In this document: positions 32,166 to 61,872 of the stretch, piece by piece
Numbering within the stretch: the stretch's first letter is position 1
Layout: every line of letters begins with the position of its first letter
Source of the DNA: Thermotoga sp. Ku-13t
GTDB lineage: Bacteria > Thermotogota > Thermotogae > Thermotogales > DSM-5069
Assembly (NCBI RefSeq): GCF_011057685.1
Contig: NZ_LNFY01000010.1
Coordinates: forward strand, 186,001-250,000
Length of the DNA: 64,000 bases
Reading direction: 5' to 3'
Position numbers and translations under genes: made by a program
Notes under the pieces: model-generated
The model's input: only the letters and a program-made list of their open reading frames with translations
What the model was told of the DNA's origin: nothing
Database searches by the model: none

Positions 32166-32615
32166 ATGGCGTTGAGGCTCGAAGATCTCAAGCCCACACC
32201 TGGCTCGGTGAAAAAGCCCAAGAGGGTTGGTAGAGGAATAGGTTCTGGCCACGGTAAGACATCCGGTAGGGGTCACAAAGGTCAAAAAGCCAGGGGCACG
32301 GGAAAGGTTCATCCTTGGCATGAAGGCGGACAGACGCCTTTGCACAGAAGGCTGCCAAAAGTTGGATTCAAGAGTTTCGTTCACAAGGACTACGCTGTGG
32401 TGAACTTGAGAACGCTCGAAGAAAAGTTCGAAGCCAACGAAGAAGTTACACCGGAAAAGCTGATCCAGCTCGGCGTGGTGAAAAAACTGAAAGATGGTGT
32501 GAAGATCTTGGGAGACGGCGAACTGACGAAACCCCTGATTGTGAAAGCTCACGCGTTCAGCGAGAGTGCGAAGAAGGCTATAGAAGCGGTCGGGGGAAGG
32601 GCAGAGGTGATCTAA
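32166..32615 (+). CDS. rplO: 50S ribosomal protein L15
   Basis: 149 residues. The glycine- and arginine-rich N-terminus ([20 protein letters not shown]) threads into 23S rRNA, and the C-terminal globular part ends with [15 protein letters not shown]. It lies directly before secY, with a one-base gap, as in most bacteria. Confidence 0.98.
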
Positions 32616-49110: not shown

Positions 49111-49937
49111 CCCATACCGAAAAGGATTTTGATTCTTTCGATGAAGGACAGCCTTTTCGCGACGACTTTGTTCGTTATCTTGTCAGCGACGCCGTGGATG
49201 GCCAGGGACGGTTGGCACGTTTTCCTGAAAATCACGAATGGTATCTGTCTCGCAACACTTTCTTTCACTACGGGTTCGAACTTCATCACGTGCGTCGAAT
49301 CGAAACTCACGCCGATGAACCTGTTCACAACGGAACTGAACTTTTCGATAGCTTTTCTCCCCTCTCTCAAATCCCTCACCATGTTCATCACAACGTGGAA
49401 GGTCACAGGTTCAAGACCTTTCAGAACGAGTATTTTGACAAAAGTGTATGCGTTCACCAGCGCTGTCGGTTCGGCAGCCGTCAGAACCAGAACGTGGTCA
49501 CTGTTCAGGTAGAACCTCTCCAGCTGTTCGTTGAAACCCGGTGGAAAGTCAAAAATGATGTAGTCGTAGTCTTCTCCGATCTTTCTCAACTCGTTCATAA
49601 CCCTGCCCTTGTCCTCAACGTTGAAAGTGATCAGATCATCGACGTCCATACCACTGCTTATGAGTTCGACCCCGTAGGGGGTCTTGAAGATGACATCGTT
49701 CATGTCCACTTTCTTCTTGAGAAAATCTTTCAGTGTGAACTTCGGTGTTACACCCATGAGTATCTCTGCGTTGGCGAAGCCCGCATCTGCGTCGAACAGC
49801 AGCACTTTATAGCCTCTTTCTTGAAGGACTATCGATAAATTGACGGCAACCACCGTCTTACCTACGCCGCCCTTACCGCTGGCGACACTGATGATCCTTG
49901 CCCCTGAGTTGTAAAGCCCCTCAGCTTGATTGGGCAA
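49107..49937 (-). CDS. flhG: Flagellar number/placement ATPase FlhG (MinD-like)
   Basis: 276 residues of the ParA/MinD family. The deviant Walker A SGKGGVGKTVVAVNLS lies at residues 20-35, then LLFDADAGFANAEILMG and YDYIIFDFPPGF. FlhG sets flagellar number and counteracts FlhF. TTG 49935-49937 is the start, behind GAGGTG, and it overlaps flhF by 17 bases. The FlhF-FlhG pair directly after flhA is standard. Confidence 0.93.
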   Translation of the reverse strand: MPNQAEGLYNSGARIISVASGKGGVGKTVVAVNLSIVLQERGYKVLLFDADAGFANAEILMGVTPKFTLKDFLKKKVDMNDVIFKTPYGVELISSGMDVDDLITFNVEDKGRVMNELRKIGEDYDYIIFDFPPGFNEQLERFYLNSDHVLVLTAAEPTALVNAYTFVKILVLKGLEPVTFHVVMNMVRDLREGRKAIEKFSSVVNRFIGVSFDSTHVMKFEPVVKESVARQIPFVIFRKTCQPSLAIHGVADKITNKVVAKRLSFIERIKILFGMG

Positions 49938-53108: not shown

Positions 53109-54233
53109 TTACCTCAGCGAGTAAACGTATGCGAGGATCTCTGCCACGGCTCTGTAAAGATTTGGAGGGATCTGTTCACCCACCTCGCAACTTTTGAAAA
53201 GCTCCCACGCTACCTGGGGGTTTCTAACGATGGGGACACCACTCTTGGTAGCTATCTCAACGATCTTTTTTGCAACTTCATCTGCTCCCTTTGCGATGAC
53301 TTCCGGTGCTTCCATATTTTCAGAATCGTACTGCAGAGCGACGGCGACGTGCGTCGGGTTCGTGATCACAACGTCCGCTTCGGGAACCTTCTGTAACATC
53401 CTGCTCCTCGCGAGCCTCATCATGATCTCGCGTTGACGTCTCTTCACTTCCGGGTTACCTTCAACTTCCTTGAATTCTTCCTTCAATTCCTGCCTGGTCA
53501 TGCGCAGACTCTTTTCGAATTCCCATCTCTGGAAAAGATAGTCAACCAGTGCCAGGACCAGCATCGCTATGGCACAGCGCAGCATCAGCGTGCTGACGAG
53601 ATCCGCGAGGTACCAGACCGAAGCGTGCGGTTCAACATCGGAAAGTCGAGGCAATTCACTGTAACGCTGCTTGATCAGGCTGTACGACACGTAGCCCACG
53701 ATGGCAAGTTTGACGATCGTCTTGAAGAGTTCAAAGAGATTCCTTAAAGAGAACATTCTTTTCAAACCATCGATCGGGTTGATCCTGTTCAGGTCAAACT
53801 TCAGGGGTTTGAAAGAGAACAAAAACTTCGTCTGCAGAGCACCTACGATTATGCTTACCAGCGCCACGATGGACATCAGGAGAATCAGAAGAACAAGGGG
53901 ATCTCTAAAAAGGTGGAATACGAAACTTGATAACGTTTCTTCGTCCACAGGTTCAAGTGAGAAAAAAGGTACGGACGCGTTCATCAATGTTCTACTGAGC
54001 TGCGGCAGAAGAAGTTTCAAAGCAATGGTCGCAGCAAGAAAGCCCACCGCCATGTTCAACTCACGCGATACAGCTACCTGACCTTCCTCTCTCGCCTTTC
54101 TTCTGCGCCTCGGGGTGGGTTTCTCGGTTCTGTCCGGATCGGCAAAAAGCTGAAGATCAATGTTCAGCGGTTCATGAAAAACTCTATGAAATTGATCATC
54201 TTCTCTGCCAGCTGAGTGCTCATCTCTGCCCAT
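53109..54233 (-). CDS. flhB: Flagellar export switch protein FlhB
   Basis: The conserved protein runs from IDLQLFADPDRTEKPTPRRR through four membrane segments to a cytoplasmic domain with the self-cleavage site NPTH (ADVVITNPTHVAVALQY). FlhB switches export from rod/hook to filament subunits. The only ATG upstream is at 54233, which would put about 22 unrelated residues inside fliR; the conserved part begins at CTG 54165-54167 (overlapping the fliR stop) or ATT 54159-54161, so a non-standard start is possible. I give the longer coordinates. Confidence 0.9.
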   Translation of the reverse strand: MGRDEHSAGREDDQFHRVFHEPLNIDLQLFADPDRTEKPTPRRRRKAREEGQVAVSRELNMAVGFLAATIALKLLLPQLSRTLMNASVPFFSLEPVDEETLSSFVFHLFRDPLVLLILLMSIVALVSIIVGALQTKFLFSFKPLKFDLNRINPIDGLKRMFSLRNLFELFKTIVKLAIVGYVSYSLIKQRYSELPRLSDVEPHASVWYLADLVSTLMLRCAIAMLVLALVDYLFQRWEFEKSLRMTRQELKEEFKEVEGNPEVKRRQREIMMRLARSRMLQKVPEADVVITNPTHVAVALQYDSENMEAPEVIAKGADEVAKKIVEIATKSGVPIVRNPQVAWELFKSCEVGEQIPPNLYRAVAEILAYVYSLR

Positions 54234-54931
54234 ATACCTATCATTCCCACCATCAAGAGCATACCAACGAGAACTTTCAAAGGCAAGCCCACCATGAACA
54301 CGTTCATCTGGGGAACCAGTCGGGACAGAATGCCCAGTGCAACCGAAACGATCAGCATGAATCCGATCAGGGGCATACCGAACTTGAACGCGATCACGAA
54401 GCTTTCAGAAATTTTGTTGATAATGATATCCAGAAAATTCAATCTTTCCAGAGAATCCGTGAGTGAAAAGTGCTTGAACGAATCGACGATCGCCTGATAG
54501 AGAAGCAAATGCCCCTTTATCGTGACGAAGACAAACAGACCGATCGTGTACAGCAGTTCCCCATGCAGTGGTACTTCTTCACGCTGCGGATCGAACACGG
54601 AAGACATGGCGTACCCCATCTGTGTACCGAAAACTTCTCCAGCCAGGCTCAGGCCCGAGAGCGGTAGCAGCGCCAGAAATCCCACGACCAGACCGTAGAG
54701 GTAATTGTTGAGCATTGCGAGTACGAGTGATAGAACCGGAACGTCCAGAGGAACCACCTGTTGTAGCGCGGGTACCACCAGCCAGCTCAAGAATACGGCG
54801 AGAAGCGCCTTCACCTGCACAGGTAGAAACCAGTCTCCAAAGAATGGTGCGACTGTGAACATCCCGGCTATCCTGGTCAGAGCCAGAACCCAGACGAGGA
54901 ATTTCTCCTGAACGAATTCGTAGAGGTTCAG
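54164..54931 (-). CDS. fliR: Flagellar export apparatus protein FliR
   Basis: About 255 residues from a CTG at 54929-54931, giving (M)NLYEFVQEKFLVWVLALTRI, then AGMFTVAPFFGDWFLPVQVK, the conserved first membrane helix region of FliR. The first ATG in frame is at 54862, inside that conserved region, and would remove about 23 residues. No ATG, GTG or TTG lies between the fliQ stop and 54862. GGGGAT is placed 8 bases before the CTG. FliR is part of the helical FliPQR export pore. Confidence 0.88.
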   Translation of the reverse strand: MNLYEFVQEKFLVWVLALTRIAGMFTVAPFFGDWFLPVQVKALLAVFLSWLVVPALQQVVPLDVPVLSLVLAMLNNYLYGLVVGFLALLPLSGLSLAGEVFGTQMGYAMSSVFDPQREEVPLHGELLYTIGLFVFVTIKGHLLLYQAIVDSFKHFSLTDSLERLNFLDIIINKISESFVIAFKFGMPLIGFMLIVSVALGILSRLVPQMNVFMVGLPLKVLVGMLLMVGMIGIWAEMSTQLAEKMINFIEFFMNR

Positions 54932-59160: not shown

Positions 59161-60381
59161 CTATATCATACCACGCACACAGTTCAACAATAAAAACAGC
59201 GCGTGCGTTGTGACTCTGGCTCTGAAGATGTTTCTTTCTTGAGGGTAAAAGATTTTTTCAACATAGTCTCTTTGACCATCCGTGACGCAGAAATACGCTG
59301 TACCAATGGGTTTCTCCTCGCTTCCGCCGGTTGGCCCCGCAATGCCAGAAACCGCGACCGCCAGATCGCTGCTTGTGAGTTTCTTAACACCGTGTGCCAT
59401 TTCTAAAACACACTGTTCACTGACCGCCCCGAACCGCTCGATCGTTTCTTTGCGAACCTTCAACGCTTTAACTTTAACCGAGTTGTCATACGCCACAACA
59501 CCGCCAACGAAAACTTGCGAAGCCCCGGGCAAGGAAACTATTTTCGAGCTAACAAGACCTCCAGTGCACGATTCCGCGACCGAGAAAGTCAACTTCCTCC
59601 TCTTCAGTTCTTCGAACAGAGCTTTCTCTACGCTCGTTTCTCCATAGCCTATGAAATTCTGCCGGAATTTCTCCTCGAGTTTCTGTGAAAGCTTCTGTGC
59701 TTCGTCGAAACAGTCCAGATGCGCAGTGAGCCTTACCCACACACCCTCGCCAAAGGACGCCTGCGTAGCGATCTTCACGCATCTTTTCACTGCGGCATCC
59801 GTCATGAACTGGTCCAGAACCGATTCCGGAACACCAAAGAACAACATCTTTATGGTCTTGAGGTCCTGTTCCGTCTTTAACTGTTCCAGAACGCTGTCCA
59901 GCATTGGCCTCATTTCCTGAGGCGGGCCAGGTAGGAGTACGATCTTTTTCCCTTCGAATTCGATCAGCTGACCAGGAGCGGTACCCACGGGGTTGGGGAT
60001 GATCCGGGCGCCCTGGATCACGAGGGCCTGCCTTTCCAGGTTTTTTGGCAAGGCGCTGTAATAGCGGGAAACTTTTTCATAGATCTTTCTTTTGATCTGT
60101 TCGTCAACAATCAGCTCGCGTGCCAGTGAACTGGCAATTGCTTCCCTCGTCCTGTCGTCCTCTGTTGGCCCCAGACCCCCGCTCACTACTATGACGTCGC
60201 AACTTTTCAACAGCCGCTGTATTTCTTCTTTGATTGAGTCCTCCTCGTCATCGACACTGATCACTTTTTTGACCGTGTAACCATTCTCTACGAGCTTTCG
60301 GCAGATGTACTGGGCGTTTGTGTTGAGGATGATACCTTCGACGATCTCGCTGCCTATGGTCAGTACCGCCGCTGCTTTCAG
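59161..60381 (-). CDS. cinA: CinA-family nicotinamide-nucleotide amidohydrolase / COG1058 protein
   Basis: About 406 residues from CTG 60379-60381, giving (M)KAAAVLTIGSEIVEGIIL. That CTG follows GGAGGGG by 5 bases, and the stop TAA of tctA precedes it. The N-terminal molybdopterin-binding-like domain has VSGGLGPTEDDRTREAI and LLPGPPQEMRPML. The C-terminal amidase domain has SVAESCTGGLVSSKI and VSGIAGPTGGSEEKPIGT. The first standard start (GTG 60264) would remove 39 conserved residues. Such proteins recycle or clean up pyridine nucleotides. It follows tctA by about 20 bases. Confidence 0.88.
   Translation of the reverse strand: MKAAAVLTIGSEIVEGIILNTNAQYICRKLVENGYTVKKVISVDDEEDSIKEEIQRLLKSCDVIVVSGGLGPTEDDRTREAIASSLARELIVDEQIKRKIYEKVSRYYSALPKNLERQALVIQGARIIPNPVGTAPGQLIEFEGKKIVLLPGPPQEMRPMLDSVLEQLKTEQDLKTIKMLFFGVPESVLDQFMTDAAVKRCVKIATQASFGEGVWVRLTAHLDCFDEAQKLSQKLEEKFRQNFIGYGETSVEKALFEELKRRKLTFSVAESCTGGLVSSKIVSLPGASQVFVGGVVAYDNSVKVKALKVRKETIERFGAVSEQCVLEMAHGVKKLTSSDLAVAVSGIAGPTGGSEEKPIGTAYFCVTDGQRDYVEKIFYPQERNIFRARVTTHALFLLLNCVRGMI
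59165..59193 (-). promoter_or_regulatory. Candidate promoter of the cheA operon
   Basis: On the minus strand TTATTG (59188-59193) and TATGAT (59165-59170) are spaced by 17 bases and lie within the last codons of cinA, about 35 bases before cheA. It is moderate in quality; readthrough from cinA is equally possible because only 30 bases separate the two genes. Confidence 0.35.
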
Positions 60382-60402
60382 ATAGACCCCTCCGAATAAG
60401 GA

Positions 60403-61872
60403 TTATACCTTTCTTTTCCTAACCGTGCTCAGCAGTGGCGGTACTAACAGCACGGAAAGTATCAAAACGAACAAGACCAGCGAAATGGGACGGGTCAAAA
60501 ACGGGAGAAAATCCCCTTTGGTCTTGATCAAACCAACTCTCAGGTTGTCTTCGATCGTCCTGCCAAGGATCAATCCCAGAATCATGGGGGCAAGTGGTAC
60601 TCTCAGTTTCTCGAATGCATAGCCTATCAGTCCGAAAACGAACATTACATAAACATCGAACACACTGTTTCGCAATGCGTAAGAACCCACGATACAGAAA
60701 ATCGTCACCGCGGTCATCACAAGACCTGCTCTGAGCCTCACAAACAGTGAGAATGCCTTTATCCCGAGCCAGCCTACTGGAATTAGCAATATCTGTACCA
60801 AGACAGCAACCGTGAACAACTGTATCACGAGATCTCTGGATTGCGTGAAGATCATGGGACCGGGTCTCAGACCGTACATAAGCATCGCACCCAGTACGAT
60901 CGCGGTGATCGAGTCTCCAGGTAAGCCGAACACGAGAGCAGGAATCCATGTTCCACCGATTGCAGCGTTGTTCGCACTCGTGGGTGCGATAACTCCCCGC
61001 ACACTACCTGTGCCCAACTCTCCGTCTTTCGAGAAGTTTTTCTCCACACCATACGACACCCACGCTGCTACATCAGCCCCCGCCCCAGGAAGGGCGCCTA
61101 TGAAAGTTCCTATCAGAGCTCCACGAATGACGGTAAACTTGTATTTCCAGATGTATCTGAACGCCTCTCTCAGGTCTGTCTTTGCCGTTTCTCGAACAGC
61201 TGAAAGTTGAAGCTGGCTCCTTTCAGTTACTTTCTTAAAAACTTCAGATAATCCAAACAAACCTATCATCGCGGGTATGAAGCTCACACCGTCCATCAAC
61301 TCTGTGACACCGAAAGTGAACCTCGGATAACCTGTTGTCACGTCTATACCAATCGTCGAAATGAGCAAACCAAGCGTGGCAGACATCAATCCTTTGATCG
61401 TATTGCCTTTACTCAGCACTGCCGCCATGCTTAGGCCGAAAATTCCAAGCCAGAAGTATTCAAAATGAGTGAATCTTAGTGCGAATTTTGCAAGCGGTGG
61501 AGAAACCGTTATGAGTATCAGAACACCTATCAGGCCTCCGAGTGCAGAGCAGAAAAGGTCTAACGTGAGGGCGAGCGAACCTTTCCCTCTTTTGCTCAGT
61601 TCAAATCCATCAAGTATCGCCGCGCCGGATGCGGGGGTGCCTGGGATTCTCAGAAATGTAGCAGGGATATCGCCAGCGAAAATCGCTGAGAATGAAACAC
61701 CCAGAACCATTGCGAGCCCCGCTATAGGTTTCATGTAGTAAGTGAGAGGAATTATCAGAGCGACAGCCATTGTCGCTGTCAAACCAGGAACAGCTCCCAC
61801 AAAGACTCCAAAAAGCATTGACAACAAGAGAGGAAACAGAACATCGGGTTTCAGAACCGAAGCAAGTTGCAT
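60403..61872 (-). CDS. Tripartite tricarboxylate transporter large membrane subunit (TctA)
   Basis: 489 residues with about eleven or twelve membrane segments. Family motifs are PGLTATMAVALIIPLTYYMK and GALPGAGADVAAWVSYGVEK, with PATFLRIPGTPASGAAILDG between. TctA forms the carrier that works with TctB and the periplasmic receptor TctC to import carboxylic acids in symport with a cation. The substrate is not readable from sequence. ATG follows GAGGTG; the gene starts 4 bases after tctB. Confidence 0.93.
   Translation of the reverse strand: MQLASVLKPDVLFPLLLSMLFGVFVGAVPGLTATMAVALIIPLTYYMKPIAGLAMVLGVSFSAIFAGDIPATFLRIPGTPASGAAILDGFELSKRGKGSLALTLDLFCSALGGLIGVLILITVSPPLAKFALRFTHFEYFWLGIFGLSMAAVLSKGNTIKGLMSATLGLLISTIGIDVTTGYPRFTFGVTELMDGVSFIPAMIGLFGLSEVFKKVTERSQLQLSAVRETAKTDLREAFRYIWKYKFTVIRGALIGTFIGALPGAGADVAAWVSYGVEKNFSKDGELGTGSVRGVIAPTSANNAAIGGTWIPALVFGLPGDSITAIVLGAMLMYGLRPGPMIFTQSRDLVIQLFTVAVLVQILLIPVGWLGIKAFSLFVRLRAGLVMTAVTIFCIVGSYALRNSVFDVYVMFVFGLIGYAFEKLRVPLAPMILGLILGRTIEDNLRVGLIKTKGDFLPFLTRPISLVLFVLILSVLLVPPLLSTVRKRKV

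Follow-up and report, generated by a model that had tools for sequence, protein, structure and literature searches.

The start codon of cinA

Where does translation begin in a gene whose reading frame offers no ATG, GTG or TTG ahead of its conserved N-terminus? This question is raised by cinA in a stretch of 64,000 bp from the thermophilic Thermotoga sp. Ku-13t (NCBI RefSeq assembly GCF_011057685.1, contig NZ_LNFY01000010.1, forward-strand positions 186,001 to 250,000), which we refer to as the window. CTG is listed among the start codons of NCBI table 11, and an earlier note on this DNA (the original prediction) had proposed that cinA begins at a CTG. On the minus strand the gene order is tctA, cinA and a cheA-like gene, where the names tctA and cheA were taken from that note and from our reading of the translations. 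Table 1 lists the features discussed below. Coordinates are relative to the window unless prefixed with G000:C10, G000 being this genome.

Table 1. Positions of the cinA start region and of other genes with non-standard starts
Feature	Position	Strand	Remarks
cinA coding sequence from CTG	59161..60381	-	406 residues + stop; COG1058 ADP-ribose pyrophosphatase, KH-like and PncC NMN deamidase domains
CTG, putative start codon	60379..60381	-	NTG at aligned codon in 44/44 readable order relatives; sole start candidate ahead of the conserved residues
Shine-Dalgarno GGAGGGG	60387..60393	-	gap to CTG TCTAT, 5 bases; same position in genus relatives
TATAAT, possible -10 box	60402..60407	-	overlaps tctA stop; 20 bases before CTG
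tctA, upstream gene	60403..61872	-	stop 60405-60403; ends 21 bases before cinA CTG
GTG, first standard in-frame start	60262..60264	-	39 codons downstream of CTG; rejected as start
Codons for GSEIVEG (GXEX3G signature of COG1058; PMC3680494, excerpt)	60334..60354	-	upstream of GTG 60264
fliR (Bac_export_1)	54164..54931	-	CTG start 54931-54929; Pfam PF01311; second supported CTG start in window
murI-like gene	G000:C10:99323-100081	+	CTG start; loci L238-L253
murD	G000:C10:250155	+	just past window end; loci L259-L263
Methyltransferase with PUA-like domain	G000:C10:129482-130642	-	~55 kb before window; Pfam PUA_3 + Methyltrans_SAM; loci L137-L146

The cinA frame extends from stop to stop over positions 59161-60402 (413 codons). 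There is no in-frame ATG, GTG or TTG from 60402 to 60265, and the first one, at codon index 46, is the GTG at 60264. Between them, the CTG and the codon preceding this GTG delimit 39 codons, which matches the 39 residues without a standard start that had been noted originally, and the spacing of five bases after GGAGGGG was read correctly as well. The predicted pairing with the anti-Shine-Dalgarno sequence was -10.4 kcal/mol at the CTG compared to -2.9 kcal/mol at GTG 60264.

We then compared the aligned codon among relatives. The gene was found in all 61 genomes searched (this one and 60 relatives) and the codon could be read in 59 of them; the two loci left out are those of G002, whose contig breaks off within the gene, and G051, where the match begins at residue 72. 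Within the order all 44 loci that were read have NTG at this position (22 ATG, 15 TTG, 4 GTG and 3 CTG). For the 15 more distant members of the class we observed GTG at the aligned codon in two cases, and the likely start of the others is one or two codons off. Besides this genome, CTG occurs in G003, which belongs to the same genus and has no alternative start upstream, and in G041 from another family. The nearest relative G001 (92% protein identity) and G004, also of the genus, carry TTG, one base away from our CTG; this is the comparison with sister species that the original prediction had suggested as a check. In all four genus genomes read the Shine-Dalgarno pairing lies between -10.4 and -12.1 kcal/mol. 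As a control we used internal codons aligned to a leucine TTG or CTG in G003 or G004, and only 51-66% of these stay NTG. At the cinA codon, in contrast, methionine, valine and leucine codons are mixed and yet the TG is always kept, as would be expected of a start codon. Given the strong Shine-Dalgarno, the open frame without any other start and the NTG conserved at this codon across the order, cinA is very probably translated from the CTG at 60381-60379, as originally proposed.

Several points weigh against this reading. The support is drawn from sequence and conservation, and the pairing energies were computed with an assumed 14-nucleotide tail, not with one read from this genome. The CTG of G041 is ambiguous because an in-frame ATG lies two codons upstream. 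In Escherichia coli, initiation complexes at CUG are less stable than those at AUG, GUG and UUG (PMC11497404, excerpt). CTG starts also appear to be rare elsewhere: in a comparison of 36 genome triplets a switch from UUG to CUG was counted once in 2,468 cases, from AUG to CUG twice in 61,358 and from GUG to CUG once in 5,080 (PMC5622118, excerpt), which we sum to 4 switches to CUG per 68,906 ancestral AUG, GUG and UUG starts. Those counts rest on annotated starts and may therefore underestimate CTG.

The choice of start has a clear effect on the protein. We detected domain matches to MoCF_biosynth, KH and CinA (PncC), and the full-length product passes the NCBIfam model PRK00549.1 with 380.2 bits (cut-off 379), whereas the product from GTG 60264 fails it with 340.2 bits. 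For MoCF_biosynth the score falls from 124 bits to 84.6 bits. Both CinA motifs, GXEX3G and GGL/IGPX3D, are present in the translation as GSEIVEG and GGLGPTEDD. By these matches the product is CinA (COG1058-PncC, PRK00549 equivalog), with predicted ADP-ribose pyrophosphatase and NMN deamidase activities. The Thermus thermophilus CinA (PDB 4ct8) and PDB 6mr3 show protein homology that sets in at residue 10 or 12 of the open frame and continues almost to its end, and both begin within a few residues of the CTG position. In the Agrobacterium tumefaciens homologue conserved charged residues are essential, and replacement of Glu21 left no detectable activity (PMC3680494, excerpt); from its position, rather than from an alignment made by us, we take Glu21 to be the glutamate of GXEX3G. 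A gene caller restricted to ATG, GTG and TTG arrives at GTG 60264 and a protein of 367 amino acids, which fits the truncation by automatic annotation that had been foreseen. While cinA itself is an ordinary gene, genome comparison makes its start a clean and provable example of what such gene finders miss. Records cut short in this way misdirect family models, structural studies and cloning for expression, and here they would lack the signature motif belonging to the first catalytic domain.

Alternative explanations and mechanism

Among the alternatives, a regulatory role of the CTG survives best. It would be compatible with a CTG start: IF3 would repress cinA in the way it represses infC, and the output would track IF3. 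In this order infC has ATC, ATA or ATT, preceded by a strong Shine-Dalgarno, in 28 of 28 located loci (30 loci, L208-L237), although in nine of the 28 an in-frame TTG 11 or 12 codons upstream also pairs near -11. In this respect infC, the known IF3-repressed gene with an ATT, ATC or ATA start, resembles cinA in having a non-standard start behind a strong Shine-Dalgarno. It differs at the third base in all loci read, whereas cinA differs at the first base and varies between sister species. That closely related species alternate between TTG and CTG speaks against a conserved regulatory role at cinA. Another non-standard start in an ordinary gene is the GTC of Streptomyces sigR, but there repression by IF3 has been demonstrated (PMC5472188, excerpt), while for cinA it is only possible. 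Overall we regard IF3 control of cinA as unlikely.

It is far less probable that the true codon is TTG and that the CTG results from a sequencing or assembly error. A single base would suffice, as G001 and G004 carry TTG. The same CTG is however found in the separate assembly of G003, without an upstream alternative, and CTG was encountered again at further start columns, both here and in the relatives; for both reasons an error is not a likely cause. Equally improbable is a weakened start in a gene on its way to being lost. Provided that G001 and G004 are representative, TTG probably came first, but the frame is intact with 92% protein identity to G001, the Shine-Dalgarno is retained and several other intact genes also have CTG. 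Finally, a shorter protein initiated at GTG 60264 is hardly credible: this is the first standard in-frame start, but it has no Shine-Dalgarno, the 39 codons upstream of it are conserved across the order, and its product would lose the GXEX3G domain signature (PMC3680494, excerpt) and drop below the cut-off of PRK00549.1. Conserved charged residues are essential in the A. tumefaciens protein.

If translation does start at the CTG, the Shine-Dalgarno would hold the CUG in the P site and the normal initiator tRNA would read it with one C-U mismatch at the first position, inserting formyl-methionine. The output would probably be below that from an ATG. Cryo-electron microscopy at CUG is reported to show a weak first base pair next to normal pairing at the second and third positions, and was done with a variant tRNA (M1; PMC11497404, excerpt). 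An altered initiator tRNA of the M1 type, with G30-C40 swapped, found no support as the cause here. The GGG/CCC anticodon stem is unchanged: this genome carries the stem GGGCTCATAACCC intact, as do all 38 that gave a match among the 45 searched. We also rejected a second in-frame CTG at 60363-60361 as the start, with a pairing of -5.4; the aligned codon in relatives is often a non-start codon (ATA, ATC, ATT and others).

The TATAAT upstream of cinA suggests that the gene has a short leader of its own. By eye we found TATAAT at the corresponding position in 8 of 10 readable loci of the family, and a scan with consensus promoters did not report the copy at 60402-60407. The murD gene is preceded by a similar TATAAT. 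The predicted RNA structure across the cinA start showed nothing unusual (z 0.34).

CTG starts across the genus

The start of cinA does not stand alone, and we see it as part of a broader employment of CTG by the genus as a fourth start codon. In order to estimate how often CTG occurs at starts, we compared 351 kb of this genome (~17%) with stretches of 318-480 kb from G001, G003 and G004. Leave-one-out start calling over 270 ortholog groups gave 795 start tests, with NTG in 791 (8 of them CTG) and another codon in 4, the latter resembling starts shifted by one codon. A total of 151 cases without a reference column, 36 with an unalignable N-terminus, 21 with a weak Shine-Dalgarno and 1 with a stop were set aside, as were 60 groups with fewer than three genomes. 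Two of the eight CTG cells come from one gene (window position 49182) whose start is doubtful, and by design the procedure is blind to genes that have CTG in most of the genomes.

For the second survey CTG was allowed as a start and two genomes of another genus of the family (G008 and G009) were added. A conserved NTG start column was found in 216 of 284 ortholog groups. CTG occupied 9 of 216 such columns in this genome, 8 of 215 in G001, 9 of 202 in G003 and 5 of 160 in G004, compared to 1 of 71 in G008 and 3 of 140 in G009; the contrast between the genera is weak, because this genome served as the anchor for the groups and the other genus is represented by two genomes. Three of the 16 CTG columns (window-relative positions 32523, -6184 and -111039) are doubtful owing to alignment with internal codons or weak pairing, and were kept in the counts. 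To put these numbers into perspective we repeated the count for the other codons. CTG occurs alongside standard starts in 14 groups, while the 57 other codons reach a mean of 0.72 and a maximum of 4 groups, and CTC, whose frequency within genes is close to that of CTG, gives 2 groups. With the three doubtful columns set aside, we estimate that ~2 to 3% of the starts in the sample from this genome are CTG.

The G+C content of the sampled stretches does not cleanly account for a drift from TTG to CTG. It is 49.9% in this genome, 51.0% in G001 and 49.7% in G004, but G003, at 43.0%, equals this genome in its number of CTG columns (9 of 202). CUG-initiated genes known from bacteria are similar in that an NTG is read by the initiator tRNA with a mismatch at the first position behind a strong Shine-Dalgarno. 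They differ in being very rare in the published switch counts, as opposed to ~2 to 3% of the starts sampled here. Our literature searches listed no paper on CTG starts in Thermotogae, and the main text of the T. maritima reannotation paper, as excerpted, contains neither CTG nor CUG nor TTG (PMC3636130). Bacterial CTG starts are thus already known but rare, and it is the frequency in this genus that looks new. The interchange of CTG and TTG within the genus also offers a natural test of whether a strong Shine-Dalgarno compensates for a weak start codon at high temperature.

Three further genes illustrate the pattern, although their codons outside the genus form a biased contrast as the genes were picked for having CTG within it. 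For fliR we observed CTG in five of five genus genomes, and at the aligned position all six other genomes of the family have TTG or GTG. The original prediction had counted three CTG-like starts in the window; we found support from conservation for two, those of cinA and fliR, and recognised no third. The murI-like gene has CTG in three of the four genus genomes in which it was found (this genome, G001 and G004) and TTG in G003. Its start codon is NTG in 15 of 16 read loci, and the remaining locus has an ATG one codon before. At murD, CTG occurs in four of five genus genomes with TTG in this one, and NTG is kept in all 21 loci. A gene similar to D-Tyr-tRNA deacylase (dtd, window-relative position 111563) has CTG in G003 and G009, which belong to different genera; the codon is TTG in this genome and G001.

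An ATT start in a methyltransferase gene

A second type of non-standard start was encountered outside the window, in a methyltransferase gene with PUA_3 and Methyltrans_SAM domains which we take to be RlmI-like. In this family of organisms the gene has no ATG, GTG or TTG ahead of the conserved N-terminus. An ATT behind a strong Shine-Dalgarno is present in 10 of the 10 family genomes having the gene, nine times at the aligned codon and in G006 one codon earlier; G005 gave no match. The stop codon of the upstream gene begins with the third base of the ATT (three loci translated, seven judged by eye), and the ATT may therefore be forced by this overlap. The translation of the upstream gene reads like an alcohol dehydrogenase. 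The methyltransferase may share control by IF3 with infC.

Taking these surveys together, we favour, with some reservation, the view that CTG serves as a routine fourth start codon in the genus, used by ~2 to 3% of genes and in some of them long kept (e.g. fliR in five of five species), so that annotation based on ATG, GTG and TTG only would shorten several dozen proteins per genome, and that the family-wide ATT of the RlmI-like methyltransferase is a second non-standard start, possibly gated by IF3 together with infC. The results most worth following are how often genes of the genus start with CTG and the ATT start seen throughout the family.

In another family the strongest Shine-Dalgarno pairing at the methyltransferase gene belongs to an in-frame ATA (L148 in G013 and L154 in G029), and in G013 no standard start lies upstream of it.
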